Source: Oscillospiraceae bacterium (GTDB taxonomy: Bacteria > Bacillota > Clostridia > Oscillospirales > Oscillospiraceae). Taken from it: DNA of 52,753 bases. Every line of letters starts with the position of its first letter. The first letter of the stretch is position 1. The stretch spans positions 1-52,753 of the forward strand of contig JAFTMI010000023.1 of NCBI GenBank assembly GCA_017452505.1, in the 5' to 3' direction. A program made the translations under genes and the position numbers. Under the pieces are notes generated by a model. The model ran no database searches and had not been told where the DNA came from. It worked only from the letters and a program-made list of their open reading frames with translations. Shown in pieces: positions 3,310-52,753 of the stretch.

Positions 3310-3432
3310 AAGCCTTCCCCTTGAGGGGAAGGTGGCAAAAAACTCTGTTTTTTGACGGATGAGGTGTAAATGCGAAAACCAAACACCTCATCAGTCACCT
3401 GCGGTGACAGCTTCTCCTCCAGGAGAAGCCTT
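3310..3432 (-). repeat. Intergenic repeat family A, copy 1
   Basis: A 123-bp unit with self-palindromic ends (CTTCTCCTCCAGGAGAAG and CTTCCCCTTGAGGGGAAG), a central GATGAGGTG...CACCTCATC stem and two inner variable hairpins (CACCTGCGGTG; CAAAAAACTC...TTTTTTG). It is inverted relative to copies at 31095, 39058 and 43629. It ends 21 bp before the start of the 60-aa gene at 3454. Confidence 0.8.
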
Positions 3433-31094: not shown

Positions 31095-31204
31095 AAGGCT
31101 TCTCCTGGAGGAGAAGCTGTCACCGCAGGTGACTGATGAGGTGTTATGGACCACCTCATCCGACCTCGCTACGCTCGGCCACCTTCCCCTCAAGGGGAAG
31201 GCTT
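31095..31204 (+). repeat. Intergenic repeat family A, copy 2
   Basis: 110 bp. Ends CTTCTCCTGGAGGAGAAG and CTTCCCCTCAAGGGGAAG, central GATGAGGTG/CACCTCATC stem, inner hairpins CACCGCAGGTG and CCGACCTCGCTACGCTCGG. It is followed by CCGCCCCTACGA, which looks like the end of a family B repeat. Confidence 0.8.
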
Positions 31205-38243: not shown

Positions 38244-39029
38244 TTATAGTTTCAAAATATATTCTGCGGTTTTGTGGGCGATTTGCTCGAACTGGTCGTT
38301 GGTTAGCTTCAGCTTTAAGAAACGCTCCATTTCCGTTGCGGGATCCCACATGGGGAAGTCGCTGCCGTAGACGAATCGCTCCGCGCCGTAGCGGTGAATA
38401 TAGCTTTCAGCCACACCCTCGGCCATAAACATCAAAGAGCTGGACACATCAAAGAAGCAATCCGTGTCCTTGAGGTAGTCATAAGCCTGCTCGTAAAGCT
38501 CATAGGCACCAAAATGAGCAGCGATCACCTGCAGATTGGGGAACAGCTCCATTACCCGGCGCAAACGCTTGGGGTGGGAATAGTCAAACCGGTGGTCGCC
38601 CATATGGAGGATCACAGGCAGCTTTCCCTGCACCTGTTCATATACGGGGAAGAGCCGTTCGTCGTCAATGGCGAACACCTGGGAATCCGGGTGCATCTTT
38701 AAGCCTTTGAGACCTTTTTCCATAATGAAGTCCACTTCGCCGGTGATGTTCTCCATTGCTGCGTGGACAGTACCAAAGCCGATGAAACGAGGCTCTGCTG
38801 CCACCTGGGACAGGATAAACTCATTGATATGCCGGGTGCGGTCCGGGCGCATGGCCACGGGCAGAATCACAAACCGGTGGGTGCCGGCCATATCGCCCCG
38901 CGCCAAAAGGGTCGTAGCTGTGCCGTCCATGGCTTTTTCGCCAAAGCCGTAGAATACCCGGATGCTGTCGGCTGCCTTGGGGGCAATGGCATCGGGGTAA
39001 ATATGGGTATGAAAATCAATAAAATCCAA
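38244..39029 (-). CDS. Amidohydrolase-family metal-dependent hydrolase, 261 aa
   Basis: A TIM-barrel hydrolase: the HxH metal motif DFHTHIYPD is at the very start, LKGLKMHPDSQ near residue 115, LHMGDHRFDYSHPKRL near 145, VIAAHFGAYELY near 172, and the final metal Asp in VYGSDFPMWDP near 217. The start is a TTG at 39029, 7 bases after AAGGA; the open frame continues to 39113 but that part is repeat A copy 3 and is not plausible protein. The family hydrolyses amide or ester bonds or decarboxylates; specific substrate unknown. Similar uncharacterised proteins are common in Clostridia. Confidence 0.83.
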   Translation of the reverse strand: MDFIDFHTHIYPDAIAPKAADSIRVFYGFGEKAMDGTATTLLARGDMAGTHRFVILPVAMRPDRTRHINEFILSQVAAEPRFIGFGTVHAAMENITGEVDFIMEKGLKGLKMHPDSQVFAIDDERLFPVYEQVQGKLPVILHMGDHRFDYSHPKRLRRVMELFPNLQVIAAHFGAYELYEQAYDYLKDTDCFFDVSSSLMFMAEGVAESYIHRYGAERFVYGSDFPMWDPATEMERFLKLKLTNDQFEQIAHKTAEYILKL

Positions 39030-39057
39030 AGTAATTTCCTTCTTGCGTATCGTTTCA

Positions 39058-39189
39058 AAGGCTTCCCCTGGAGGGGAAGCTGTCTGCGAAGCAGACTGAT
39101 GAGGTGTAGCCACGAAGTGGCGTTGTCTATCTCACCTCATCCGACAAAAATCAAAGAATTTTGTCACCTTCTCCTCAAGGAGAAGGCTT
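39058..39189 (+). repeat. Intergenic repeat family A, copy 3
   Basis: 132 bp. Ends CTTCCCCTGGAGGGGAAG and CTTCTCCTCAAGGAGAAG; central GATGAGGTG/CACCTCATC stem with a longer apical part (GCCACGAAGTGGC); inner hairpins CTGCGAAGCAG and GACAAAA...TTTTGTC. The amidohydrolase gene is initiated from its left border. Confidence 0.82.
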
Positions 39190-39237: not shown

Positions 39238-40269
39238 TTATTTGTAGATCAGAGACTCGGCGTAGCGGGTAGCAATGATGCCCTCGGGCTCGCCGGTGGT
39301 CTTGGACTCGGACAGAATGTGCTCGATGGTGTTGTAGATGTTGTCTACCTTAGCCAGGACAGCATCCTTGTTGTAAGGACCGTCCACCTCAGCAGCTGCG
39401 TTGATAACACCGCCGCCGTTGATGACGAAGTCGGGAGCGTAGAAGATGCCGCGAGCCTTCAGAGCCTCGCCGGATGCATCGTCCAGGATCTGGTTGTTAG
39501 CGCCACCGGCAACAGCCTTACATTTCAGCTGAGGAATGGTGGTGGGGTTCAGGATAGCACCCATAGCGTTGGGGGAGAAGATGTCGCACTCCTGTGCGTA
39601 GATCTCGTCGGTGGAGACGATGGTAGCGCCGAACTCTTCCTTAGCCTTCTCAGCCATAGCCTTGTTGGAACGGTTGGCGATGATCAGCTTAGCGCCGCTG
39701 TTGTGCAGATGACGGCACAGATCGTAGCCGACCTTGCCCAGGCCCTGCACAGCAATGGTCAGGCCTTCCAGGTCGTCACGGCCCAGAGCAACCTTAGCGG
39801 TAGCGCGGATACCCTGCCATACGCCGCGGGCGGTGAAGGGAGAGGGGTCGCCGGAGTTCATGGGCAGACCGCAGATATGCTTGGTCTTGCGCATCATGAT
39901 CAGAGCGTCGTCGCAATCGGTGTTTACGTCCTCAGCGGTGATGTAGTCGCCGCCCAGGTTGTTAACAGCCTCGCCGAAGGCCTCGAACATAGCCTCGGTC
40001 TTCATGGAGGGGTCAGCGATGATAACGCCCTTACCGCCGCCGTGGGGCAGGCCGGCAACTGCGTTCTTGTGGGACATACCGCGGCTGAGGCGCAGAACAT
40101 CAAACAGAGCATCATCGTAGGATGCGTAGGGGAACAGACGGCAGCCGCCGATGGCGGGGCCCAGGTTGGTGTTGTGGACAGCGATGATAGCCTTCAGGCC
40201 AGCCTTCTCGTTGTTCACGAACAGGACTTTTTCATGACGGTATTTGCTCATTTCGGTCATTGCATTCAT
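39238..40269 (-). CDS. Leucine dehydrogenase (Glu/Leu/Phe/Val dehydrogenase family)
   Basis: The 343-aa NAD-dependent enzyme interconverts branched-chain amino acids with their 2-oxo acids and ammonia. The catalytic lysines are Lys68 (RGMSHKNAVAG) and Lys80 (LPHGGGKGVII), with the NAD motif GLGKVG at 176-181. NLGPAIGGCRLFPYASY at the N-terminus is typical of leucine rather than glutamate dehydrogenases, and length (usual 345-365) fits. It lies 48 bp after the VOR gamma-subunit gene on the same strand. In this context it links branched-chain 2-oxo acids made or used by VOR to leucine, valine and isoleucine. Direction is discussed in the findings. Confidence 0.92.
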   Translation of the reverse strand: MNAMTEMSKYRHEKVLFVNNEKAGLKAIIAVHNTNLGPAIGGCRLFPYASYDDALFDVLRLSRGMSHKNAVAGLPHGGGKGVIIADPSMKTEAMFEAFGEAVNNLGGDYITAEDVNTDCDDALIMMRKTKHICGLPMNSGDPSPFTARGVWQGIRATAKVALGRDDLEGLTIAVQGLGKVGYDLCRHLHNSGAKLIIANRSNKAMAEKAKEEFGATIVSTDEIYAQECDIFSPNAMGAILNPTTIPQLKCKAVAGGANNQILDDASGEALKARGIFYAPDFVINGGGVINAAAEVDGPYNKDAVLAKVDNIYNTIEHILSESKTTGEPEGIIATRYAESLIYK

Positions 40270-40317
40270 AAATAGTTTCCTCCTTAATATTTCGGACTGC
40301 TTACGCAGTTCAATTTT

Positions 40318-40854
40318 TTACTTATATTCCTTGCCCAGGGTCAGAGCCTTCTTGTTCAGCTCCACCAGAGCGGCCTTCTTGGGGGGTACCAGCTTTTCAA
40401 CCACGGTATCGGTGCCTTCAAAGGAAAGCTCGGGGTTGTTCTGCAGCAGGTGACCCACAATGATCATGTTGGCCAGGGTGGCGATGCCGTTGTCCTTTGC
40501 CATCTGGGTGGCGGGGATGTAGAACACTTCCACATCGGTGCGCGCAACCTTCTCATCGATCAGCGCGGAATCCACATAGATCTGGCCGCCGGGAACGACA
40601 GTATCCACATACTTCTGTAAGGAAGGCAGGTTCATAGCGATCAGCACATCGGGAGCAGTAATGATGGGGCTGCCCACGGGGGTGTCGGACAGGATCACAT
40701 TACAGTTGGCGGTGCCGCCGCGCATCTCGGGGCCGTAAGAGGGCAACCAGGAAACCTGCTGCTCTTCCAGCAGACCCTTGTAGGCCAGGAACTTACCGGC
40801 AAACAGAATACCCTGTCCGCCAAAGCCGGCAATGAGGATTTGTGTAGTTTTCAT
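40318..40854 (-). CDS. 2-oxoacid:ferredoxin oxidoreductase, gamma subunit (VOR-type)
   Basis: A 178-aa subunit of the ketoisovalerate/2-oxoacid ferredoxin oxidoreductase. The start IAGFGGQGILFAGKFLA, LPSYGPEMRGGTANCNVI and the PVGSPIITAPDVLIAMN segment are hallmarks. ATG 40854 is used rather than the frame start further upstream, since GAGGAAAAG lies just before and the beta gene stop overlaps immediately. The complex reversibly converts branched 2-oxo acids and CoA to acyl-CoA, CO2 and reduced ferredoxin. Confidence 0.93.
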   Translation of the reverse strand: MKTTQILIAGFGGQGILFAGKFLAYKGLLEEQQVSWLPSYGPEMRGGTANCNVILSDTPVGSPIITAPDVLIAMNLPSLQKYVDTVVPGGQIYVDSALIDEKVARTDVEVFYIPATQMAKDNGIATLANMIIVGHLLQNNPELSFEGTDTVVEKLVPPKKAALVELNKKALTLGKEYK

Positions 40855-40855
40855 A

Positions 40856-41611
40856 TCACTTTTCCTCCTTGGCAGCAGATCTGTCCTTGTAAACACCGAT
40901 GGGGTAATAGGGAAGCATATCGCTTTCCACCCACTCCAGTGCCTTCTGAGGTGTCATACCCCAGTTGGTGGGACAGGCGGAGACCACCTCAACCAGGGAG
41001 AAGCCCTTGCCGGCGATCTGATTTTCAAAGGCCTTCTTGATGGCCTTCTTGGCGTTCTTGACGTTCTTCACGTTGTTCACAGCTACCCGGGTGATGTACT
41101 CGGGGCCTTCCAGGGTGGAGAGCATCTCGCAGACCTTGATGGGCCAGCCGCAGTGGTTCACATCACGGCCATAAGGAGAAGTCTGAGTCACCTGGCCGGG
41201 GAGGCTGGTGGGAGCCATCTGACCGCCGGTCATGCCGTAAATGGCATTGTTGACGAAGATGACGGTGATGTTTTCGTTACGGGCTGCGCTATGGACGGTC
41301 TCAGCCATACCGATGGAGGCCAGGTCGCCGTCGCCCTGGTAGGTGAACACGATGTTCTCGGGGCGGGCGCGCTTGATGCCGGTAGCGGTGGCAGGGGCGC
41401 GGCCGTGGGCAGCTTCGATCATATCGCAGGTGAAGTAGTCATAGGCCATAACAGCGCAGCCAACAGGCGCAACACCGATGGTCTTACCTTCAATGCCCAG
41501 CTCGTCGATTACTTCGGCAACCAAACGGTGGATAATGCCGTGGGGGCAGCCGGGGCAGTAGTGCAGAGGGATATCTGCCAAAGACTTGGGTTTTTCGAAT
41601 ACAACTGCCAT
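40856..41611 (-). CDS. 2-oxoacid:ferredoxin oxidoreductase, thiamine-diphosphate (beta) subunit
   Basis: A 251-aa TPP-binding subunit: the CPGCPHG motif near residue 20, [15 protein letters not shown], the TPP/Mg motif [10 protein letters not shown] and [17 protein letters not shown] are as in VOR/KOR beta subunits. ATG 41611 is preferred over GTG 41620 because AAAGGAG lies 10 bases upstream. Its stop (40856) and the gamma start (40854) are adjacent, which implies translational coupling. Confidence 0.94.
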
Positions 41612-41613
41612 TT

Positions 41614-42675
41614 TTAGCACTCTCCTTTCTGTGCCTTGCGGATAGCCTCCAGCACCTCATCGGGGCTGGGGATCATACCGCCGCAGCGATTGCACAGGGA
41701 AACAGGACGCTTGCACTGGGTGTACAGCTTCACATCCTCGATCATCTGACCCATGCTCAGCTCCACGCAGATAAAGCTCTTGACTTTTTCAGCGGCAGCC
41801 AGCAGCGCCTTCTTGGGGAAGGGCCACAGGGTGATGGGACGGATCAGACCCACCTTGATACCTTCAGCGCGGGCAGCAGCCACAGCATTCTTGGCAACAC
41901 GGGAAGCGATACCGAAGGCAACCACGCAGTACTCGGCATCTTCCATCATGTACTCTTCCCACATGGGCTCGTTCTCTTCAACGATCTTATAACGCTCGTA
42001 ACGCTCGAAATTCTTCACTTCCAGCTCGTCGGGCTTCAGGTACAGGGAGTTGACCACATTGTGTTCTCTCTCGCAATTGGTACCGGTGAGGGCCCAGGGC
42101 TTTTCGTAGCTTTCAATCTCGGCATCCTCAAAGGAGATGGGCTCCATCATCTGACCGATGGTGCCGTCTGCCAGGATCATAGAAGTCATTAAGTACTTGT
42201 CAGCCAGGTTAAAGCCCTTGATGGTAAGGGAAGCCATCTCCTGCACGGAAGCGGGGGCTAAGACGATCATCCGGTAGTCACCGTGACCGCCACCCTTGGT
42301 AGCCTGGAAATAGTCGGACTGGCTCGGCTGAATGCCGCCCAGGCCGGGGCCGCCGCGCTGAACATTGACGACCAATGCAGGAACGTCAGAGCCGGCGATA
42401 TAGCTGAGGCCTTCTGCCTTCAGAGAAACTCCGGGGCTGGAGGAAGAGGTCATGACCCGGACACCGGCAGCGGCTGCGCCGTAGACCATATTGATGGATG
42501 CGATCTCACTCTCTGCCTGCAGGAAAACGCCGCCAATCTTGGGCATTTTCTTTGCCATATAGGCAGCGATCTCGGTCTGGGGGGTGATGGGGTAGCCAAA
42601 GTAGTGCCGGCAGCCTGCCCGAATGGCGGCCTCGGCAATGGCTTCGTTACCTTTCATAAGTACTCTTTCTGCCAT
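41614..42675 (-). CDS. 2-oxoacid:ferredoxin oxidoreductase, alpha subunit (VOR-type)
   Basis: A 353-aa subunit with the [18 protein letters not shown] motif near residue 28, EASIN-like [31 protein letters not shown] and [16 protein letters not shown]. The C-terminal part with [13 protein letters not shown] binds the partner subunits and CoA. Fused ferredoxin domain is absent; the delta ferredoxin is a separate gene upstream. The set delta-alpha-beta-gamma is the normal four-subunit VOR arrangement. Confidence 0.95.
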
Positions 42676-42687
42676 GTCACTACCTCC

Positions 42688-42894
42688 TTACTTCTCGACC
42701 GTGATGATGCAATCCGGGCACATGGTAGCGCAGAATGCGCAGCCGATGCACTTTTCGGGATTTTCCATCACAGCGGGAGAATAGCCTTTTTTGTTGATCT
42801 TGTCAGCGGCGATGGCGAGGCAGCCCTTGGGGCAGGCATCTACGCACAGGCCGCAGCCCTTGCACCAGTCGGTGCGGAAGGTTACAGTTGCCAT
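42688..42894 (-). CDS. 2-oxoacid:ferredoxin oxidoreductase, ferredoxin (delta) subunit
   Basis: A 68-aa 2[4Fe-4S] ferredoxin-like subunit with CKGCGLCVDACP (residues 11-22) and CIGCAFCATMCP (49-60), each followed by a typical C-P spacing. It carries electrons between VOR and free ferredoxin. AAGGAGG precedes ATG 42894. It lies 12 bp before the alpha gene. Confidence 0.94.
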   Translation of the reverse strand: MATVTFRTDWCKGCGLCVDACPKGCLAIAADKINKKGYSPAVMENPEKCIGCAFCATMCPDCIITVEK

Positions 42895-42912
42895 AAAGTT
42901 TCCTCCTTATCT

Positions 42913-43617
42913 CTATCCCCACAAAGGTCGGTTACCCGGCCTTTGGGAGGGTAAATCAAAATATTTCTCCTGCAGTTGCAGGGGGATCACAGGGTCAAGC
43001 TTGCCTGCAAGCTGCTTTGCAACAGAGCTTTCAGCGGTGTAGGCAAAGACAGGAAGTCCGCTGAGGGAACGCAGCTTTTCCATAAAGTCCACAGAGTCCA
43101 GAACGGTCTGTGGGGTGGTTTCCGGGCCTAAATTGGAGTTGCCCACAATGTCAGTGAAGGCAAGGCCGCAGGCGGCTTCAATCTCCCGCATCACTTCCAA
43201 AGCATTTTCGGGGGTGCGGGTGAGAGGCCGGTAGCAGTTGGCCACAAATACCATACGGTAGTTGCCCTCTTCCTTGATGGCGGGCACATACCGACCCAAG
43301 GCATATGCGCCCCGGTCATCACCGCCGATGTCCATAATGCCGTAGATATTTTTGTCCTCCACCAGCCGGTAGGCCTCGGCGGGCAATGCCGGTAAGTCCA
43401 CATTGGAGTTGGCAAACTGGGGGGAGATGAGGGTGACACCGGCCTTTTCCAATTCCTTGGCGCTGTCAGCGGTGCGGAAGTAGGGATTGACGATGTCCAA
43501 ATCGCCAATGCAGACCTGTTTACCCTCTTTTGCCAGAGCGATCGCATAGTTCACGGCAATATTGGTCTTGCCGCTGCCATAATGGCCTGCAAATAATGTG
43601 AGTCTTTTGTGTTCCAT
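42913..43617 (-). CDS. MinD/ParA-like P-loop ATPase at the head of the VOR operon, 234 aa
   Basis: The Walker A is GHYGSGKT at residues 11-18 with the ParA-like pattern IALAKEGKQVCIGDLDIVNP, then FANSNVDLPALPAEAYRL and a Walker B-like GIMDIGGDDRGAYALG. There is no membrane segment or Fe-S motif. It lies 18 bp upstream of the VOR ferredoxin and on the same strand, and no promoter is found between it and repeat A copy 4, so it is likely cotranscribed. A role in cofactor insertion or assembly of VOR is inference. Confidence 0.82.
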   Translation of the reverse strand: MEHKRLTLFAGHYGSGKTNIAVNYAIALAKEGKQVCIGDLDIVNPYFRTADSAKELEKAGVTLISPQFANSNVDLPALPAEAYRLVEDKNIYGIMDIGGDDRGAYALGRYVPAIKEEGNYRMVFVANCYRPLTRTPENALEVMREIEAACGLAFTDIVGNSNLGPETTPQTVLDSVDFMEKLRSLSGLPVFAYTAESSVAKQLAGKLDPVIPLQLQEKYFDLPSQRPGNRPLWG

Positions 43618-43628
43618 AGGGTTCCTCC

Positions 43629-43750
43629 AAAGGCTTCCCCTTGAGGGGAAGCTGTCAAAAATCTATTCGATTTTTGACTGATGAGGTGTTTTTGACTGCC
43701 ACCTCATCCGACCCGGCTTTGCCGGGCCACCTTCTCCTCAAGGAGAAGGC
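43629..43750 (+). repeat. Intergenic repeat family A, copy 4
   Basis: 122 bp. Ends CTTCCCCTTGAGGGGAAG and CTTCTCCTCAAGGAGAAG, central GATGAGGTG/CACCTCATC stem, inner hairpins TCAAAAATC...GATTTTTGA and CCCGGCTTTGCCGGG. It fills the whole gap between the ATPase start codon and the acyl-CoA synthetase stop codon, with 3 bp left before the latter. Confidence 0.85.
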
Positions 43751-43753
43751 ATT

Positions 43754-46048
43754 TTATAGTTGTTTTCTTATAATCTTGCCGCTGGTAGTCTTGGGCAGGG
43801 ATTCCTTAAATACCACGATACGGGGGTACTTATACGGTGCGGTACGCTTCTTGACGTAGTCCTGAATTTCTTTCTTCAGTTCGTCGGTGCCCTCGGTGCC
43901 TTTCACCAGCACGATGGATGCCTTGACCACCTGGCCTCTGACCTCGTCGGGGGCGGCGGAAACACCGCACTCCAGCACATAGGGCAGCTCCATAATGACA
44001 TTCTCGATCTCGAAGGGTCCGATCCGGTAGCCGGAGGACTTGATCACATCGTCAGCCCGGCCCACATACCAGAAGAAGCCGTCTTCGTCCTGCCAGGCAA
44101 GGTCGCCGGTGTGGTAGAAGCCGTCCCGCCAGGTTTCCGCGGTGACTTCTTCGTTGCCCTCGTAGGCATAAGCCAGGCCGCAGGGCAGACCGTCTTTGAT
44201 ATTGATACAAATTTCACCGGTTTCACCGGGATCTGCCTCTTCACCCTCGGCGGTGAGCAGATGTACATCGTACAGGGGAACGGGCTTACCCATAGAGCCC
44301 AGCTTGTGGCTGCAGCCGGTAAGGTTACCGATGATAAGGGTGCTTTCGGACTGGCCGAAGCCTTCCATAATATCCAAACCGGTAGCGTTCTGGAACTGGC
44401 GGTAAACCTCGGGATTCAGCGCCTCGCCGGCAGTGGATGCATGCTGGATGGTGTGCAGGTCGAAACGGGAAAGATCCTGCTTGGCAAGCATTCTGTACAT
44501 CGTGGGGGGCGCGCAGAAGGTGGTGATATCGTACTTGGCAAACATGGGCAGGATCTTCTCCGCATCAAAGCGGTCGAAGTCGTAGACGAACAGACCTGCC
44601 TCGCACAGCCACTGGCCGTAGAGCTTGCCCCAGGAGGACTTGGCCCAGCCGGTGTCGGAAATGGTCAGGTGCAGGCCGTCGGGATTGACCCGGTGCCAGT
44701 ATTTCGCAGTAATGAAGTGACCCAGGGGGTACTTGTAGTTGTGGGCAGCCAGCTTGGGATAGCCGGAGGTGCCGGAGGTGAAGAACATCAGCATAGGATC
44801 GTTGCCGCAGGGGGCATCCTCTGTGCGCGTATAATGGCTGGAGTACATGAGATATTCTTCGTTAAAGTCGTGCCAGCCTTCCTTCTTGCCGCCCACCAAG
44901 ATCTTGTGGGCAAGCTCGGGGCACTGCAAAGCGGCCTCGTCCACTGCGTTGGAAACGCCGCCGTCAGCGGTACAGAGAATGGCCTTGACCTTGCCTGCCT
45001 GGAAGCGGTAGGCGAAGTCCTTGGTCAGCAGCTGATTGGTGGCGGGAATGGCCACAGCGCCCAGCTTATGCAGACCCAGTACGGCGAACCAGTACTGATA
45101 GTGGCGCTTTAAGACCAGCATCACCCGGTCGCCCCGCTGGATACCCAGGGCCTTGAAGTAGTTGGCGCAGCGGGCGGATTCCTTCTTGAAGTCCTGGAAG
45201 GTGAAGGTGCGCTCGGTGCCGTCTTCTGCAATGTGGAGCATTGCCCGGCGGTCGGGCTTTTGGGTGCCAAGGGCATCCACCACATCAAAGGCAAAGTTGA
45301 ATTTGTCCTGGTTCTTAAAGGCGATGCCGGTGATCCGGCCTTCTGCATCCTCGGTGGGGATGATGAAGTTCCGGTAAATGCGCTTTTCGTCCTGGGCATC
45401 CACGATACCGCCCTTGGTAGCGGTGGCGGTGGCGGCTGCCTGCTCACCCTCACGGGCGGCGGAGTTACTTAAGACGATGGCATAGAAACGGCAATCTGCG
45501 CCGTCCACGGCGATCATACCGTGGGGAACGGAGGAGTCATAGTAAATACAATCGCCGGGATTTAAGATCTCGGTCTTGCTGCCAATCTGGATCTTCATGC
45601 GGCCGCTGATGACGATATCGCACTCCTGGCCCTCGTGGGTCACAAGCTCGATGTCCTCATACTCAGCGCCGGGCCGGTAGGTAAGGTCCATATACAGGGG
45701 CAGGGCAATACGGTTGCGGAAGCCGGAGGCCAGGTTATAACCCACCATATTGTGGGCTTCCTCGATCCGCTGACCCTCACCCTTACGGGTCAGAGCATAG
45801 GAGCGCAGCTTGGGGCTGTGGCCTTCCAAAAGATCGGACATATCCACGCCCAAAATCAGCACGCAGCGGTACAAAAATGCAATGCTCAGGTCGGTCTTGC
45901 CTTCCTCGCAGCGGAGATATTCAGCTGTAGCCATGCCGGTGCGCTGGGCCATCTCCTCCACGGTGATGCCGGAGATCTCACGCAGTTCCCGGATACGGGC
46001 GGCTATTTCTTTGTTTTTGTAGTCCGCGCCGGTGATATTTTCGCTCAT
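43754..46048 (-). CDS. XRE-HTH/cupin/acyl-CoA synthetase fusion, 764 aa (paralogue 1)
   Basis: Three parts are seen in order. Residues 13-68 are an XRE-type HTH (IAARIRELREISGITVEEMA, TGMATAEYLRCEEGKTDLSI). Residues about 110-195 are a cupin (HEGQECDIVISGRMKIQIGS, LNPGDCIYYDSSVPHGMIAV). Residues about 245-764 are an AMP-forming acyl-CoA synthetase of the medium/short-chain type: FFTSGTSGYPKLAAHN (P-loop), ISDTGWAKSSWGKLYGQW, the GEALNPEV and EGFGQSE motifs, YHTGDLAWQDEDGFFWYVGR and the catalytic-lysine end KTTSGKIIRKQL. It should activate a short branched or aryl acid, and may bind DNA as well. Minus-strand promoter at 46098-46127; AGAGG precedes ATG 46048. Confidence 0.93.
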   Translation of the reverse strand: MSENITGADYKNKEIAARIRELREISGITVEEMAQRTGMATAEYLRCEEGKTDLSIAFLYRCVLILGVDMSDLLEGHSPKLRSYALTRKGEGQRIEEAHNMVGYNLASGFRNRIALPLYMDLTYRPGAEYEDIELVTHEGQECDIVISGRMKIQIGSKTEILNPGDCIYYDSSVPHGMIAVDGADCRFYAIVLSNSAAREGEQAAATATATKGGIVDAQDEKRIYRNFIIPTEDAEGRITGIAFKNQDKFNFAFDVVDALGTQKPDRRAMLHIAEDGTERTFTFQDFKKESARCANYFKALGIQRGDRVMLVLKRHYQYWFAVLGLHKLGAVAIPATNQLLTKDFAYRFQAGKVKAILCTADGGVSNAVDEAALQCPELAHKILVGGKKEGWHDFNEEYLMYSSHYTRTEDAPCGNDPMLMFFTSGTSGYPKLAAHNYKYPLGHFITAKYWHRVNPDGLHLTISDTGWAKSSWGKLYGQWLCEAGLFVYDFDRFDAEKILPMFAKYDITTFCAPPTMYRMLAKQDLSRFDLHTIQHASTAGEALNPEVYRQFQNATGLDIMEGFGQSESTLIIGNLTGCSHKLGSMGKPVPLYDVHLLTAEGEEADPGETGEICINIKDGLPCGLAYAYEGNEEVTAETWRDGFYHTGDLAWQDEDGFFWYVGRADDVIKSSGYRIGPFEIENVIMELPYVLECGVSAAPDEVRGQVVKASIVLVKGTEGTDELKKEIQDYVKKRTAPYKYPRIVVFKESLPKTTSGKIIRKQL

Positions 46049-46097
46049 AAGATACCTCTTCTATCATGGGTATGTCCGGATGATTCCGGAAAATAAA

Positions 46098-46127
46098 ATC
46101 ATAACATATTTAATAGGAAGTTGTCAA
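46098..46127 (-). promoter_or_regulatory. Promoter of synthetase paralogue 1
   Basis: Minus-strand TTGACA (46127-46122) and TATGAT (46103-46098), spacer 18 bp. A TCCGGA...TCCGGA-like hairpin lies in the leader. Confidence 0.7.
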
Positions 46128-46131
46128 TAAA

Positions 46132-48399
46132 TCACAGCTTGTTACGCATAATTTTTCCGGAGATGGTCTTGGGCAATTCTGTGCGGAATTCCACGATGCG
46201 GGGATACTTGTAAGGCGCGGTGTGGGTCTTGACATAGGTCTGGATCTCTTTCTTCAGCTCCTCGGTGCCTTCTGTGCCGGGAACCAGCACAATGCAGGCC
46301 TTGACCACCTGGCCTCTGACCTCGTCGGGAGCGGCGCAGACACCGCATTCCAGAACATAGGGCAGCTCCATAATGGTGGACTCGATCTCGAAGGGTCCGA
46401 TCCGGTAGCCGGAGGACTTGATCACGTCGTCAGCACGGCCCACATACCAGTAGTAGCCGTCCTCGTCACGCCAGGCAACATCGCCGGTGTGGTACATGCC
46501 GTCGTGCCAGACTGCATCGGTAGCTTCCTGGTTGCGGTAGTAGCCCAAAAATACGCCGCAGGTGGGCTTGGGATCGGTGCGAATAACGATCTCACCGTTG
46601 ATACCGTCTGCCACGGGGTTGCCGTCGGCATCCACAATGTCAATGCCGTAGCCGGGGACGGGCTTGCCCATTGCGCCGGGTTTGATGTTGGCACCGTACA
46701 GGTTTGCGATGCCCAGGGTCATTTCGGTCTGACCGAAGCCCTCATGGATCCGCAGGCCGGTGGACTTCTCAAACTGATAGAACACCTCGGGGTTCAGTGC
46801 CTCACCGGCGGTGGTTGCGTGATGGATGGAAGAAAGATCGTACTTGCTCAGATCCTGCTTGATGAGCATACGGTACATGGTGGGAGGTGCGCAGAAGGTG
46901 GTGATGTTGTATTTTGCGAACATGGGCAGGATCTTCTCCGCATCAAAGCGGTCAAAGTCATAAGTAAACACAGCGCCCTCGCACAGCCACTGGCCGTAGA
47001 GCTTGCCCCACAGAGCCTTGCCCCAGCCGGTTTCGGAGATGGTGAAGTGCAGGCCGTCCCGCTCGCACAGATGCCAGTACTTGGCGGTAACATAGTGACC
47101 CAAGGCATACTTGTAGGAATGGGTGGCCATCTTGGGATAGCCGGTGGTGCCGGAGGTGAAGAGCATCAGCATGGGGTCTGAGCCACAAGGCGCATCCTCA
47201 GTACGCTCATAGCGACGGCTAAACAGCTTATATTCTTCGTTATAGTTGTGCCAGCCTTCCCGGTCACCGCCAACCAAGATCTTGGTCAGATTCATACCCG
47301 CGGACTTTTCAGCCAGCTCGATCTGCTCGGCGGTGTTGCCGTCAGCAGTACAGACAACGGCGCTCACATCAGCGGCCTGGAAGCGGTAGACGAAATCATG
47401 CTCCATCAGCTGATTGGTGGCGGGGATGGCGATAGCGCCCAGCTTGTGCAGACCCAAAATGGCGAACCAGAACTGGTAGTGGCGCTTCAGCACCAGCATA
47501 ACTCTGTCGCCCCGCTTGATGCCCAGGGACTTGAAGTAGTTGGCGCTCTGGGAAGAGGCATCCTTCATATCCTTAAAGGTAAAGCGGCGTTCGGTCATAT
47601 CGTTTGCCACGTGGACCATAGCCAGCTTTTCCGGCTCTCTTCTTGCAATGGCGTCAACAGTATCGAAAGCGAAGTTGTAGGTGTCCTCGTCGGAGAAGGT
47701 CATACCCTGGAGCACGCCGTTTTCGTCTTCCACAGCGTTGACAAACTTATTGCAAAGCAGCTTCTGTTGAGAGCTGCCCTTGCGGCTCTGTCCGATGTAC
47801 AGGGGGGTGTCGGTAGCGTCGGAGGCCATGATCATAGACAGGAACACGCAGTCCTGGCCGTCAATGGCGATCATGCCGTGGGGGGTGGAGGACTTATAGA
47901 AAATAGAGTCGCCCTCTCGCAGAACTTCCTCATGGTCGCCCACCTTGATACGCATAGCGCCCTTGATCACCAGGTCAAATTCCTGACCGGTGTGGGTGGT
48001 GGTGTGGATGGGCTTATCCTGGAGGTCTGCGGAGTATTTATAGGTTACCCAGTAGGGGGTAGCCAACTTTTTGCGGAACATGGGGGCCATATCCTGGATG
48101 GTGATGCCGTCTTCGCTGGCGGTGACCAGACCGTTGCCCTTCCGGGTGACGGTATAGCCGCTGAGCTTTGCGCTGCGGCCTTCCAGCAGGACGGTGATTT
48201 CAATGCCGAAGACCTTGGCGCACTTGTGCAGGAAGGTGAAGGGCAGATCCACCGTACCGGTTTCATACTGGCGGTAAATCTCCTCAGACACCTCGGTCTG
48301 TTCAGCCATCTTCTGTGTGCTGTAGCCCAAAATCTCACGCATACCTCTGATACGCGCTGCGATATCCATAAGTTGTGTAGAGGGGGTAGTGTTGTTCAT
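46132..48399 (-). CDS. XRE-HTH/cupin/acyl-CoA synthetase fusion, 755 aa (paralogue 2)
   Basis: It has the same three-part build as the neighbour: HTH at residues 12-68 (IAARIRGMREILGYSTQKMA), cupin near 130-195 (THTGQEFDLVIKGAMRIKVG, SIFYKSSTPHGMIAIDGQD) and AMP-binding synthetase from about 235 (LFTSGTTGYPKMATHS; ISETGWGKALWGKLYGQW; YHTGDVAWRDEDGYYWYVGR; SGKIMRNKL). The two are clear tandem paralogues. GAAAGGAGATCCACT precedes ATG 48399. It is under the T-box at 48420-48680, so it is induced when the cognate tRNA is uncharged. The open frame upstream of ATG 48399 is T-box leader, not protein. Confidence 0.93.
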   Translation of the reverse strand: MNNTTPSTQLMDIAARIRGMREILGYSTQKMAEQTEVSEEIYRQYETGTVDLPFTFLHKCAKVFGIEITVLLEGRSAKLSGYTVTRKGNGLVTASEDGITIQDMAPMFRKKLATPYWVTYKYSADLQDKPIHTTTHTGQEFDLVIKGAMRIKVGDHEEVLREGDSIFYKSSTPHGMIAIDGQDCVFLSMIMASDATDTPLYIGQSRKGSSQQKLLCNKFVNAVEDENGVLQGMTFSDEDTYNFAFDTVDAIARREPEKLAMVHVANDMTERRFTFKDMKDASSQSANYFKSLGIKRGDRVMLVLKRHYQFWFAILGLHKLGAIAIPATNQLMEHDFVYRFQAADVSAVVCTADGNTAEQIELAEKSAGMNLTKILVGGDREGWHNYNEEYKLFSRRYERTEDAPCGSDPMLMLFTSGTTGYPKMATHSYKYALGHYVTAKYWHLCERDGLHFTISETGWGKALWGKLYGQWLCEGAVFTYDFDRFDAEKILPMFAKYNITTFCAPPTMYRMLIKQDLSKYDLSSIHHATTAGEALNPEVFYQFEKSTGLRIHEGFGQTEMTLGIANLYGANIKPGAMGKPVPGYGIDIVDADGNPVADGINGEIVIRTDPKPTCGVFLGYYRNQEATDAVWHDGMYHTGDVAWRDEDGYYWYVGRADDVIKSSGYRIGPFEIESTIMELPYVLECGVCAAPDEVRGQVVKACIVLVPGTEGTEELKKEIQTYVKTHTAPYKYPRIVEFRTELPKTISGKIMRNKL

Positions 48400-48419
48400 A
48401 GTGGATCTCCTTTCTAAAA

Positions 48420-48680
48420 ATAAAAAACGTCTCAAGAAAAATTCTTGAGACGAGTAAATCAAACCCGCGGTACCACTCAAATTGCAGCTTACGCTGCCGC
48501 TTCACGCTCCAACAAGCGCTATCCCTTAACGCGGGCTTACGGAAGCACCTGGCAAACGCTCGGAGCTTCAGCTCGGAAGTGATGGGTCTTGTGGCAGGAA
48601 ACTGTCGGTTCGCACCAAACACCGACTCTCTGAAAGTCCCTTTGCCGGACCGTCTTCGTCACAGCCTTTTCACTTATTGA
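48420..48680 (-). ncRNA. T-box riboswitch (minus strand) controlling synthetase paralogue 2
   Basis: The minus-strand leader has the T-box sequence TGGTACCGCG (48475-48466), the stem I elements AGAGAG and GGTGCGAACC, and a terminator CGTCTCAAGAA/TTCTTGAGACG followed by TTTTTT (48452-48421). The base stem AAGTGA/TCACTT is seen. The specifier codon cannot be placed with certainty. The leader starts about 9 bp after the promoter at 48685-48713. T-boxes bind uncharged tRNA and then allow read-through; this one drives an acyl-CoA synthetase. Confidence 0.92.
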
Positions 48681-48684
48681 CCAC

Positions 48685-48713
48685 ATTATACAATGTCCAC
48701 GGGCAAAAGTCAA
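48685..48713 (-). promoter_or_regulatory. Promoter of the minus-strand T-box transcript
   Basis: Minus-strand TTGACT (48713-48708) and TATAAT (48690-48685), spacer 17 bp. Confidence 0.88.
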
Positions 48714-48806
48714 ATGTTTTTGTGGCGGAGAATTACATAATTTTCGGCAAGCATTGGGCGCTGTTTTTGTGCAAAATCGCAAAAAACGGGTTTTCCCAAC
48801 TTTTTT

Positions 48807-48836
48807 GTTGACAAATCAGAGGATTTGTGATTATAA
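48807..48836 (+). promoter_or_regulatory. Promoter of the plus-strand T-box transcript
   Basis: TTGACA at 48807-48812 and TATAAT at 48831-48836, spacer 18 bp. The 90 bp between this and the minus-strand promoter shows nothing else. Confidence 0.85.
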
Positions 48837-48839
48837 TGG

Positions 48840-49113
48840 GGCAACCGAATAGAAAAAGACAATGACGGAAAATTTGCCCTAACGGAAAGCTCCAGAGAGC
48901 CGGCGGTTGGTGTGAGCCGGTGCGGAATGTTTTGGCGATCTGATTCCCGAGTCGGTCTTGTGAAAGCGTAAGTGAGTAATAAGATCCGGGTTCCCCCGTT
49001 ACAGGGATAGGACTTGTTGGAGTCCGATGAGTGATTTCCCGAAAGGGGAATAAGCAGGGTGGTACCGCGAATATAAATTCGTCCCTGAGGTCTTAGGATC
49101 TCAGGGCTTTTTG
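48840..49113 (+). ncRNA. T-box riboswitch (plus strand) controlling the LeuA-like/TIM-synthetase pair
   Basis: Stem I elements CCAGAGA and GGTTGGTGTGAGCC, the T-box sequence TGGTACCGCG (49060-49069) and a terminator CCCTGAGGTC...GGATCTCAGGG followed by TTTTT (49083-49113). In the putative specifier loop (48937-48943) both ATC (Ile) and CTG (Leu) can be read; CTG followed by A fits the usual pattern best. It lies upstream of the gene at 49208, with a family B repeat between. Confidence 0.93.
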
Positions 49114-49123
49114 TTTTATCAAT

Positions 49124-49178
49124 GTAGGGGCCGAAGCCCACTTCGGCCCGCGGGCGGATGTTCTCAATCCGCCCCTAC
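49124..49178. repeat. Intergenic repeat family B, copy 4
   Basis: Opens GTAGGGG, closes CCCCTAC; hairpin one GGCCGAAG/CTTCGGCC, hairpin two GGGCGGAT/ATCCGCCC. It lies between the T-box terminator and the LeuA-like gene. Confidence 0.78.
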
Positions 49179-49207
49179 GATACCAATCATAAAAGGAGTT
49201 GAACGCT

Positions 49208-50587
49208 ATGGCAAACATCAGAATTTCCGATATGACCATGAAGCAGGTACAGGAGGGCTTTTCCCTGTCCTTTAAGGAGAAGATCGAGCTTTCCAAGCTG
49301 CTGGATAAATTGGGTGTGGATGTGATCGAACTGGAGGGCATTGCCAATCCCCGGATCGATAGCCTGCGAATCAAGTCTGTGTGCAGTGCCGTAGGCTGCA
49401 CCGTGGCTGTGCCTGTCAAATTGGACAAAGAGAGCATTGATGCTACCTGGAATGCGCTGAAGGAGGCAAAAAAGCCCCGTTTGCAGGTGTGCGCTCCCGT
49501 CAGCTCCGTACAGATGGAGTACCTGTTCCATAAAAAGCCTGACGCTATGAAGGATGCCGTTGCCAAGACCGTTGCCGATTGCAAGGCATTGTGCCAGGAT
49601 GTTGAATTTGTGGCAGAGGATGCCACCCGGGCAGATTTTAATTATTTGGTCAGCGTTTTGCAGACTGCTGTGGAGGCCGGCGCTACGACCGTGACACTGT
49701 GCGATACTGCAGGCACTATGCTGCCTACGGAGTTTGCTGCGTTTATTAAGGAACTGCCTGCATTGGATGCCAAGCTCGGTGTTTCCTGCGCGGATACCTT
49801 GTCCATGGCAGATGCCTGCGTTATTGCCGCTGCTGAAAATGTACAGGAAGTAAAGGCTGCTGCTTATCCCCTCACCACCGCAAGCCTTGCCAATGTGGCC
49901 CGGGTGATCGCCGCCAAGGGTGATGCCATGGGCGTTTGTGCCAATGTAAGCGTGACCCAGCTGAGCCGGATCATCGATCAGATCGCATGGATGTGCCAGA
50001 CCGGCAAGACCGCTTCCAACGAAAACAGCGATGCCGATTCCGGCATTTACCTCACTGCCCACGACGATGCAGCCGCTGTTGCCAAGATCGTGGAATCCAT
50101 GGGCTACGACCTGTCCGAAGAGGATGTTACCAAGGTGTATGAAGCCTTTAAGGCGATTGCCGATAAGAAAGATAAGGTCAGCACCAAGGAGCTCGATGCC
50201 ATTGTGGCTTCCGCCGCTATGCAGGTGCCGGCTACCTATAAGCTGGACACTTATGTGATCACCTCCGGCAATACCATTTCCGCTACTGCCCATATTAAGC
50301 TTTTGAAAAACGGCGAGAGTGTAGAGGGTGTGTACATCGGCGATGGCTCTATCGATGCTGCATTCAAGGCAATTGAATCCATCACCGGCTGTCATTATGA
50401 GCTGGACGACTTCCAGCTCCAGGCTGTTACCGAGGGCCGGGAGGCTATGGGTCAGACCGTGGTAAAGCTCCGGGCCGGCGGCAAGGTCTATTCCGGCAGA
50501 GGTATTTCTACCGATATTGTGGGTGCCGGTATTGCTGCTTACCTCAGCGCGCTCAATAAGATCGTATACGAGGAGGAAACCGTATGA
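49208..50587 (+). CDS. LeuA-like protein lacking catalytic residues, with LeuA regulatory domain, 459 aa
   Basis: The overall fold is that of 2-isopropylmalate synthase (LeuA): EFVAEDATRADFNYL, LCDTAGTMLPTEF, the linker GYDLSEEDVTKVYEAFKAIA and a full C-terminal leucine-sensing/dimer domain (about 355-455: GDGSIDAAFKAIESITG, AVTEGREAMGQTVVKLR, GRGISTDIVGAGIAAYLSAL). However the N-terminal catalytic motif, normally DTTLRDGEQ, is DMTMKQVQE (Lys12-Gln13 in place of Arg-Asp), and the metal HxHN is Ser193-Cys-Ala195-Asp. It can hardly be a normal synthase. AAAAGGAG precedes ATG 49208. T-box regulated; it overlaps the next gene by 4 bp. Confidence 0.85.
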   Translation: MANIRISDMTMKQVQEGFSLSFKEKIELSKLLDKLGVDVIELEGIANPRIDSLRIKSVCSAVGCTVAVPVKLDKESIDATWNALKEAKKPRLQVCAPVSSVQMEYLFHKKPDAMKDAVAKTVADCKALCQDVEFVAEDATRADFNYLVSVLQTAVEAGATTVTLCDTAGTMLPTEFAAFIKELPALDAKLGVSCADTLSMADACVIAAAENVQEVKAAAYPLTTASLANVARVIAAKGDAMGVCANVSVTQLSRIIDQIAWMCQTGKTASNENSDADSGIYLTAHDDAAAVAKIVESMGYDLSEEDVTKVYEAFKAIADKKDKVSTKELDAIVASAAMQVPATYKLDTYVITSGNTISATAHIKLLKNGESVEGVYIGDGSIDAAFKAIESITGCHYELDDFQLQAVTEGREAMGQTVVKLRAGGKVYSGRGISTDIVGAGIAAYLSALNKIVYEEETV

Positions 50588-52753
50588 AACTCTCCTTTTC
50601 CACCCGTGGCTGGCCCAATTTAAGTTGGGAAGAGATGCTGGAAACAGCCCAGGATATGGGTTTTTCCGGTGTCGAGGTGTATAACCTGCCCAAATTCAAT
50701 CCGATGTTGGATAAGACCGGCCCGTTCCATAAATACCAAACTGCTGCCACCGTGCGGCAGCTGCGGGAATTAAAGCTGCAGATCCCCTGCTTTGATACCT
50801 CCTGCGACATTTCCGATCCTAATTGCAATTTGGAAGACCTGCTGGTTCTCTTTGAGGTAGCCCACAATACCCGTGTGTCCTATGTGGTTGCCTGCGCTTT
50901 GACGGAGAATGAAGACACTGTTAAGGCGAATTTGGAGAAGCTTCTGCCCAAGGCAGAGGAATTGGGCGTGACCCTGCTGCTGAAGACCAGCGGCATCTAT
51001 GCCGATACCGCCCGTCTGCGTACCATGCTGGACCAGTTTGCCAGTGATCATATGGGCGCGCTGTGGGATGTGCACCACCCCTACCGGGATTTCGGTGAAA
51101 GCGGCGATGCTACCATCAAGAACCTGGGCGCCTATGTATGCCATGTGCATTTGCGGGACTCTGACGATAACGGCACTTATCAGCTCATCGGTGAGGGCAC
51201 AATGCCCATTGCCGATGTGATGCAGGCCTTGGGCAGCGTCAACTATGACGGCTTTATCTCCCTGGAGTGGAAGCCGGAATGGCTGGAAGAGCTCCAGGAC
51301 CCCGAAATTATTTTCCCGTATTTTGTGAACTTCATGAACCGGTTTGACAATCCACGGGGCAAGAAAAAATCCCTCTACTTTAACCACGATGGCACGGGCC
51401 AGTATGTTTGGAAGAAGGATGAGCTGATCAATCTGACCTTCCCCCAGGTGCTGGACCGGGTGGCGGAGGAGTTCCCCGACCAGTACTGCTTTAAGTACAC
51501 CACTTTGGACTATACCCGTACCTATGCCCAATTCCGGGAGGATGTGGACCGGTTTGCAAGAGCGCTGGTTTCCATGGGTGTGAGAGCCGGCTCCAAGGTT
51601 GCCATTTGGGCTACCAATGTGCCTGCCTGGTACATCACCTTCTGGGCCACCACCAAGATCGGCGCGGTGCTGGTTACCGTGAACACCGCTTATAAGATCC
51701 ACGAGGCTGAGTACCTGCTCCGCCAGTCCGATACCCATACCTTGGTGATGATCGATTCCTGCCTGGACTCTAACTATGCCCAAATCATCAATGAGCTGTG
51801 TCCGGAAATCGCCAAGACCAAGGCAGGCTCTCCGCTGCACTGCAAAAAGCTGCCCTTCCTGCGGAATGTCATTACTGTTGGCTTTAAGCAGCCCGGCTGT
51901 CTGACCTTTGATGAGGCCATGGCAAGATATGAGCTGGTGAGCCGGGAACAGGTGGAGCAGATGGCTGCCGCTGTCCGCCCCGACGATGTGTGCAATATGC
52001 AGTACACCTCCGGCACCACCGGATTCCCCAAGGGTGTTATGTTAACCCACTACAATGTGGTTAATAACGGCAAATGTATCGGTGACCGGATGGGCCTTTC
52101 TACTGCTGATCGCATGATGATCCAGGTGCCTATGTTCCACTGCTTCGGTATGACCCTGTCTATGACTTCCTCCATGACCCACGGCGCAACCATGTGCCCC
52201 ATGCCCTATTTCTCCGCAACCTCTTCACTGGCTTGCATCAACCAGGAGAAGATCACTTGCTTTAACGGCGTGCCTACTATGTTCATCGCCATGTTCAACC
52301 ACCCCGACTACCGCAAGACCGATTTTTCCCATATGCGTACCGGCATTATGGCAGGCTCCGGATGTCCTCCCGAGCTGATGCGCCGGGCAGCCCAGCCGGA
52401 TGAAATGAATATGTACGGCATCGTATCCGTTTACGGTCAGACCGAATGCGCCCCCGGCAATACCATGTCTTCCTGGACCGACTCTTTGGAAGTGCGGACG
52501 GAAACGGTGGGTTATGCATTCCCCCATGTCCAGTGCAAGGTCATTGACCCGGAGACCGGCGAGGAAGTCGGCCCCGGTGTCAACGGTGAGTTCTGTGCCA
52601 AGGGCTACAACACCATGAAGGGCTACTATAAAATGCCCCAGGCCACAGCCGATACCATCGACCGTGATGGATGGCTTCATTCCGGTGACCTGGCCTGCCG
52701 TGACGAGGACGGCAATTATCGCATTACAGGACGTGTGAAGGATATGATCATCC
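50584..52753 (+). CDS. TIM-barrel/acyl-CoA synthetase fusion, 3' partial (723 aa visible)
   Basis: The first about 255 residues form a xylose-isomerase-like TIM barrel of the sugar phosphate isomerase/epimerase type: MKLSFSTRGWPNLSWEEML, GALWDVHHPYRDFGE, VCHVHLRDSDDNG, FISLEWKPEW. A short linker leads to an AMP-forming acyl-CoA synthetase from about residue 280: YTSGTTGFPKGVML near 473, TECAPGN, WLHSGDLACRDEDGNYRITG. The synthetase looks like the fatty-acid (ACSF2-like) type. The frame is open to the window end. It starts at ATG 50584, overlapping the LeuA-like stop by 4 bp (ATGA), so both are translated together under the plus-strand T-box. Confidence 0.9.
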   Translation, partial: MKLSFSTRGWPNLSWEEMLETAQDMGFSGVEVYNLPKFNPMLDKTGPFHKYQTAATVRQLRELKLQIPCFDTSCDISDPNCNLEDLLVLFEVAHNTRVSYVVACALTENEDTVKANLEKLLPKAEELGVTLLLKTSGIYADTARLRTMLDQFASDHMGALWDVHHPYRDFGESGDATIKNLGAYVCHVHLRDSDDNGTYQLIGEGTMPIADVMQALGSVNYDGFISLEWKPEWLEELQDPEIIFPYFVNFMNRFDNPRGKKKSLYFNHDGTGQYVWKKDELINLTFPQVLDRVAEEFPDQYCFKYTTLDYTRTYAQFREDVDRFARALVSMGVRAGSKVAIWATNVPAWYITFWATTKIGAVLVTVNTAYKIHEAEYLLRQSDTHTLVMIDSCLDSNYAQIINELCPEIAKTKAGSPLHCKKLPFLRNVITVGFKQPGCLTFDEAMARYELVSREQVEQMAAAVRPDDVCNMQYTSGTTGFPKGVMLTHYNVVNNGKCIGDRMGLSTADRMMIQVPMFHCFGMTLSMTSSMTHGATMCPMPYFSATSSLACINQEKITCFNGVPTMFIAMFNHPDYRKTDFSHMRTGIMAGSGCPPELMRRAAQPDEMNMYGIVSVYGQTECAPGNTMSSWTDSLEVRTETVGYAFPHVQCKVIDPETGEEVGPGVNGEFCAKGYNTMKGYYKMPQATADTIDRDGWLHSGDLACRDEDGNYRITGRVKDMII

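Follow-up and report, generated by a model that had tools for sequence, protein, structure and literature searches.

T-box-controlled gene cluster of an Oscillospiraceae bacterium predicted to build branched-chain amino acids from branched short-chain acids

The window, as the whole analysed stretch is called here, is 52,753 nucleotides of contig JAFTMI010000023.1 from an Oscillospiraceae bacterium (assembly GCA_017452505.1). Two divergent gene groups at one end of it, each behind its own T-box leader (Table 1), very probably form a system that converts branched short-chain acids into branched-chain amino acids (BCAA), with three acyl-CoA ligases, a 2-oxoacid:ferredoxin oxidoreductase (VOR) and an amination step under T-box control by the BCAA themselves. 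According to the predicted scheme, the ligase Syn2 would activate 2-methylbutyrate, its paralogue Syn1 isobutyrate, and a TIM-barrel/ligase fusion (TIM-ligase) isovalerate. Addition of CO2 to the acyl-CoAs by the four-subunit VOR would yield the 2-oxo acids that correspond to Ile, Val, and Leu, and these would be aminated by leucine dehydrogenase (LeuDH), or by an aminotransferase in many relatives. Since Syn2 is preceded by an Ile T-box and the TIM-ligase by a Leu T-box, and since about half of the loci have a separate Val T-box for Syn1, each precursor would be fetched when the cognate tRNA is uncharged. The LeuDH, the four-subunit oxidoreductase, and the two helix-turn-helix (HTH)-cupin ligases on the same strand had been named in the original prediction, and Pfam, NCBIfam, and PDB matches confirmed all of them.

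The window belongs to a metagenome-assembled genome (MAG) of 1.99 Mb in 72 contigs, with completeness of 82.5% and contamination of 6.1%. Among the named genomes scanned, Oscillospiraceae MAGs of ruminant-gut origin are closest to it. For comparison, 80 named related loci were retrieved with Syn2, many of them on short contigs. The block recurs among them: the five genes from the P-loop NTPase through the ferredoxin subunit to the VOR alpha, beta, and gamma genes are complete in 57 loci, the LeuA-like gene is present in 70, and Syn1 in 63. Locus L013 comes from a different MAG, where its contig measures 114 kb; each of its genes is 97–100% identical to its counterpart in the window. A wider set comprised 29 loci that belong to 14 further families of the class, and seven additional loci of the same family as the window.

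T-box leaders and their specifier codons

Both leaders exceed the gathering score of 93 bits of Rfam model RF00230, in agreement with the two divergent T-boxes of the original prediction. They share with this riboswitch class a Stem I with specifier, the T-box sequence, a terminator, and an antiterminator. The specifier lies beside the lower Stem I helix, in the context GAU-CUG-A in the plus-strand leader and CCC-AUC-A in the minus-strand leader. Each leader is predicted to fold into a terminator or, when cut before the 3' arm of the terminator, into an antiterminator, and the two folds are mutually exclusive. Covariance score, specifier, and alternative folds of the two leaders all agree with the class, and the leaders would be expected to bind the cognate uncharged tRNA. 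Unlike usual T-box systems, they stand before acyl-CoA ligases and a VOR operon, with one ligase per BCAA and a LeuA without catalytic motifs.

Table 1. Features of the cluster and its surroundings in the window (positions of the whole stretch)
Feature	Position	Strand	Basis or remark
Amidohydro_2 protein	38244-39113	-	Pfam; separated from LeuDH by a repeat; orientation differs among loci
Leucine dehydrogenase	39238-40269	-	Nearest PDB entries: leucine dehydrogenases 6acf (E 7e-104) and 8hpe
VOR gamma	40318-40896	-	Profile matches
VOR beta (thiamine pyrophosphate enzyme)	40856-41620	-	Profile matches
VOR alpha (VorB, PRK07119 family)	41614-42675	-	NF005507, 542 bits (cut-off 399)
VOR delta, small ferredoxin subunit, two 4Fe-4S motifs	42688-42894	-	Profile matches
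ParA/MinD-like P-loop NTPase	42913-43617	-	Conserved block member; lacks a conserved cysteine
Dispersed palindromic repeat	43634-43748	.	Takes up the greater part of the gap between Syn1 and the NTPase
Syn1, HTH-cupin-AMP-forming acyl-CoA ligase, predicted isobutyrate-CoA ligase	43754-46048	-	Pfam domains; Val clade
Sigma-70-like promoter	46098-46127	-	Between Syn2 and Syn1; 11/12 consensus match, TG before -10 hexamer
Syn2, HTH-cupin-AMP-forming acyl-CoA ligase, predicted 2-methylbutyrate-CoA ligase	46132-48399	-	Pfam domains; Ile specifier before orthologues
Terminator-like site	48452-48428	-	Ile T-box leader
T-box leader, Ile specifier AUC	48443-48671	-	RF00230, 95.7 bits; precedes Syn2 operon
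Sigma-70-like promoter	48685-48713	-	5' of Ile T-box; 11/12 consensus match
Sigma-70-like promoter TTGACA-18-TATAAT	48808-48837	+	5' of Leu T-box; 12/12, consensus match only
T-box leader, Leu specifier CUG	48853-49089	+	RF00230, 118.4 bits; precedes LeuA-like and TIM-ligase genes
Terminator-like site	49083-49106	+	Leu T-box leader
LeuA-like protein, isopropylmalate-synthase fold	49208-50587	+	Pfam; catalytic motifs lost, LeuA_dimer domain kept
TIM barrel (AP_endonuc_2)/AMP-forming acyl-CoA ligase fusion	50584-52753	+	PF01261, PF00501; truncated by contig end

Leaders were found before Syn2 (74), the LeuA-like gene (61), and Syn1 (32) across the 80 loci, when five T-boxes without a listed downstream gene were excluded. 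In within-group alignments, the specifier before Syn2 is AUC (Ile) in 74/74 leaders. A Leu codon stands before the LeuA-like and TIM-ligase genes in 61/61 (CUG 42, CUC 13, CUU 6), and a Val codon before Syn1 in 32/32 (GUC 22, GUA 10). The first two codon positions are invariant in all 167 leaders and third-base differences are synonymous only, while the bases directly flanking the codon on either side vary in all three groups. By the original prediction, specifiers for an unrelated amino acid would have refuted it; the codons read are those of Ile, Val, and Leu. Aryl acids, to which Phe or Trp specifiers would have pointed, were considered as substrates and rejected on the codons.

The alignments replaced a motif script for specifier reading, because the script resolved only part of the leaders (52/74 for Syn2, 23/61 for LeuA-like, 12/32 for Syn1). 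Taken alone, it made a wrong-looking call three times in the 80-locus set (CGG, TGG, and TCT) and gave GTG for the Syn2 leader of same-family locus L099. These calls are what could be said for a misread specifier, with T-boxes that sense other amino acids and no real link to BCAA. Such a misreading is hardly credible against the constancy of the 167 aligned codons, and the L099 leader has AUC at the usual place when read by eye. A T-box before a threonyl-tRNA-synthetase-like gene in locus L009, from the window MAG, provides a natural control for specifier reading; both gene and specifier were read by eye, and the latter is ACC (Thr).

In the 14 other families, the best call of the script was Ile in 18/22 Syn2-type leaders, with two tied with Val and two without a call; it was Val in 7/9 Syn1-type leaders, with two without a call. 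The four open or tied Syn2-type leaders were reread at the fixed position next to the lower helix, partly by eye (L134 by eye), and all are AUC. As for the open Syn1-type leaders, L111 has GUA (by eye) and L118 is cut off by the contig end. No leader was seen in locus L115. In the seven same-family loci, the script gave Ile for 6/7 Syn2 leaders, and it made no call for the Syn1 leader of L095.

In the 77 loci that include the start of Syn2 and 450 bases or more before it, a T-box was recognized by core pattern in 73. Syn1 has its own T-box in 32/63 loci; upstream of the window Syn1, the RF00230 search found no T-box match.

Ligases, oxidoreductase, and amination on the minus strand

The minus-strand order is T-box, Syn2, Syn1, P-loop NTPase, ferredoxin subunit, VOR alpha, beta, and gamma, and LeuDH. 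Syn2 and Syn1 are diverged paralogues, 57% identical, and the window ligases carry AMP-binding and AMP-binding_C domains (Pfam). The best PDB relative of Syn2 is 3ETC (E 1.1e-182), the next relative having E 6e-100. 3ETC is MacsMa, with 2-methylbutyrate as its preferred substrate according to an excerpt of PMC10455477. As 2-methylbutyrate is the Ile precursor, this preference agrees with the Ile T-box before Syn2. In a ligase tree of 138 rows, a single branch with SH-aLRT support of 100 parts 74/74 rows with Ile T-box from 30/30 rows with Val T-box, and the 33 rows without T-box are split over both sides (27 and 6). The window Syn1 groups on the Val side, and it is predicted to serve the isobutyrate/Val arm.

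The window ligases have the AMP-forming ligase domain in common with MacsMa and MbcS, but add an N-terminal HTH-cupin part and exist as two paralogues. These N-terminal parts are coded at 47750-48399 (Syn2) and 45470-46048 (Syn1), and their fusion to ligases suggests enzymes that regulate themselves (trigger enzymes). The HTH-cupin part and the ligase match are separate adjacent pieces in some family genomes (e.g., G007:C14). A fragment of a third ligase paralogue lies at a contig edge of the window MAG (G000:C63:4-1503), and is 68% identical to Syn2 over residues 256–755.

The closest PDB relative of VOR alpha is 1yd7, the alpha subunit of a 2-keto acid:ferredoxin oxidoreductase. Beta, gamma, and delta match related 2-oxoacid oxidoreductase models, those shown all being below the curated cut-off. 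The P-loop NTPase, with the stretch DLDIVNPYFR nearly invariant among relatives, is possibly involved in cofactor insertion for VOR.

Of the LeuDH, the best NCBIfam model is tryptophan dehydrogenase ScyB, with 366 bits and thus below the cut-off of 600. The original prediction took LeuDH as the aminating enzyme, and it is present in the window; in more of the relatives, however, an aminotransferase holds this slot. In the 57 loci where the sequence extends 1.5 kb or more past VOR gamma, a relative of branched-chain-type aminotransferases follows in 35 and LeuDH in 17, never both, and neither follows in five (L035, L049, L053, L078, and L079). A profile search of the window MAG gave no Aminotran_4 match.

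MbcS is used to provide primers for branched-chain membrane fatty acids. MbcS is also the best NCBIfam model for both window ligases (414 and 435 bits, under the equivalog cut-off of 850), and an acyl-CoA pool could supply both uses, so that the ligases might serve for such primers and the BCAA control might merely balance primer use. This function is improbable as the main one. An aminotransferase or LeuDH gene follows VOR in 52/57 loci with room for it, and there is one T-box with its own ligase for each of Leu, Ile, and Val. No fatty-acid synthesis gene is among the annotated genes of the window block; the flanks of other loci were searched only with window proteins and one aminotransferase.

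Between Syn1 and the next gene is a gap of 136 bp (43618-43753). The original prediction was right about this gap, and a consensus scan found no promoter-like site on its minus strand; the gene that follows is the P-loop NTPase, not VOR. The promoter-like site between Syn2 and Syn1 had not been noted there, nor had the genes behind the plus-strand Leu T-box. In the window, where no separate T-box precedes Syn1, expression of this gene would be governed by the Ile T-box or by this promoter-like site. Cotranscription of the minus-strand genes is predicted.

Proposed leucine arm

The LeuA-like protein shares the fold and the LeuA_dimer domain with 2-isopropylmalate synthase LeuA, but compared with three in-family LeuA sequences and PDB alignments, its DTTLRDGEQ, HCHND, GERAGN, and NAFAHESGIHQHG motifs are altered or deleted. 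These include the catalytic and metal motifs of LeuA (R-D and HxH). L106 was tried as a LeuA comparator and rejected, as it turned out to be another homologue. The isopropylmalate-synthase fold is also supported by a structure model, and the LeuA_dimer domain (PF08502, 104 bits), the leucine-binding regulatory part, is well conserved over 69 sequences. This protein may act as the leucine sensor of the arm.

The TIM-ligase gene is directly 3' of the LeuA-like gene in 69/70 loci, and in L013 it is a stop-to-stop frame of 845 residues. Its xylose-isomerase-like TIM barrel part (50584-51450) is ahead of the acyl-CoA ligase. The fusion is predicted to be an isovalerate-CoA ligase.

A broader proposal is tentative, and slightly more doubtful than probable. 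It holds that three parallel salvage arms, coded by T-boxes, replace de novo synthesis, and that a catalytically dead LeuA would be the leucine-sensing partner of the TIM-barrel/isovalerate-CoA ligase and would restore the ancestral end-product feedback. A dead LeuA of this kind would exemplify a metabolic enzyme turned sensor. The more general reading of the original prediction, assimilation of branched acids, is supported by the Ile, Val, and Leu codons, and it has to be extended by ligases with separate T-box codes and by a leucine arm of its own.

De novo pathway, distribution, and relation to known systems

As the original prediction had suggested, the ilv genes were searched for: no match to ilvC (ketol-acid reductoisomerase, KARI), ilvD (dihydroxyacid dehydratase, DHAD), or acetolactate synthase (AHAS) was found in the window MAG, which is incomplete (82.5%). 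By full-length ligase match (at least 900 bits), the 150 family genomes were sorted into 45 with it (Syn+), 73 with none (Syn-), and 32 of intermediate kind, which were left out. KARI is present in 10/45 Syn+ and 45/73 Syn- genomes (p 3e-5) and DHAD in 13/45 and 53/73 (p 4e-6), in Fisher tests that ignore phylogeny and exclude the intermediates. Completeness reaches at least 94% in 21 Syn+ genomes; both KARI and DHAD are missing from 12 of these and present in nine, and an Aminotran_4 match was found in 12/12 of those without. Canonical leuA above cut-off was found in 4/45 Syn+ and 9/73 Syn- genomes and is not used as evidence, because the two groups do not differ. LeuB above cut-off was absent in 15/15 genomes tested, which is weak evidence because just 9/14 control genomes reached the cut-off.

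Oxidative breakdown of the Stickland type would use the genes the other way round: the aminotransferase or LeuDH would deaminate Leu, Ile, and Val, VOR would decarboxylate to acyl-CoA, and the ligases or an exchange would release the acids. The same enzyme classes are used in catabolism by peptide fermenters, and VOR is reversible. Even so, breakdown is very unlikely here, since T-boxes for uncharged Ile, Val, and Leu tRNA, with the codons read above, raise expression in starvation, and since AMP-forming ligases spend ATP and do not yield it. The depletion of ilvC and ilvD among Syn+ genomes also fits a supply route.

Several observations weigh against the assimilatory system. The direction of VOR cannot be read from sequence, so the reductive direction is the presumed one, and the isovalerate assignment of the TIM-ligase has its T-box as sole basis. 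The usual T-box has a purine directly 3' of the specifier; here the following base is C in 19/74 Syn2 leaders, and C or T in 30/61 Leu leaders. Before Syn2, no T-box was recognized by core pattern in 4/77 loci (L058, L059, L063, and L087). The ligase tree was computed by a quick method, with long branches flagged on both sides. The Fisher tests leave shared ancestry and the 32 genomes set aside out of account, and as 10/45 Syn+ genomes keep KARI, the cluster is not strictly a replacement for the de novo route. Two genomes of the same genus, 99% complete, are without full-length ligases, KARI, DHAD, AHAS, and Aminotran_4; with full-length ligases and ilv genes alike missing from them, either the cluster is patchy or the assignment of the contig is imperfect. 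With 6.1% contamination, the assignment of the contig to the MAG is indeed not beyond doubt, and together with the incompleteness this makes absences in the MAG weak evidence. There is also a LeuB-like match in the MAG, which at 261 bits falls short of the cut-off of 353.

The chemistry of an assimilatory system has been known since the 1960s, and the gene set and per-amino-acid T-box code are apparently new. In rumen fermentation, isovalerate is converted to Leu, isobutyrate to Val, and 2-methylbutyrate to Ile, and branched-chain volatile fatty acids were reported in the 1960s as growth factors of ruminococci and amino acid precursors in rumen anaerobes (excerpt of PMC7356843, citing Allison and colleagues). 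As far as these excerpts go, the carboxylation of rumen isoacids described by Allison, Robinson and co-workers (1962–1971) has the same precursor-product pairs as proposed for the cluster; it is biochemistry without genes, and for the cluster a gene set, regulatory logic, and distribution are proposed. Rumen Methanobrevibacter uses 2-methylbutyrate and isovalerate for Ile and Leu synthesis, according to part of a review (PMC10658910). According to excerpts of PMC2700814, a real leuA of Geobacter is preceded by a Leu T-box, and iorAB-paaK is listed there with a predicted tryptophan-related regulatory element, not marked as a T-box. Judged by its gene names, iorAB-paaK resembles the cluster: an acid-CoA ligase is listed together with a 2-oxoacid oxidoreductase, and the predicted control is related to an amino acid. 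It is a partial precedent, with tryptophan there and BCAA in the window cluster. No description of T-box-controlled branched-acid ligases with VOR was found by title or abstract start in searches of the open-licence PubMed Central literature, nor in the excerpts of PMC2700814, which is weak evidence of novelty because of that restriction.

The cluster provides testable candidate genes for the branched-acid growth-factor requirement in the rumen, and predicts which ligase takes which acid. Syn2 offers a marker for it across genomes of the class, as a strong match (E up to 1e-200) was found in 100/291 sampled genomes, some matches covering the ligase part only. If the assimilatory system is real, many gut and rumen Clostridia would build BCAA from acids excreted by other community members. 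This would bear on auxotrophy prediction, as the LeuA-like gene could pass for leuA, and also on isoacid feeding of ruminants and culturing.

At the other end of the minus-strand block, a dispersed repeat separates LeuDH from the Amidohydro_2 gene, whose membership in the operon is doubtful. Besides the copy in the Syn1-NTPase gap, this repeat has copies at 3314-3428, 31099-31200, and 39062-39185, all four being about 100–125 bp long with paired palindromes. Its core is CTTCCCCTCAAGGGGAAG, with the partner CTTCTCCT...AGGAGAAG, and 12 core matches are in the window against 0.06 expected. With up to one mismatch allowed, the core has 28 strand-wise matches in the whole genome, compared with 0 for the reversed control.

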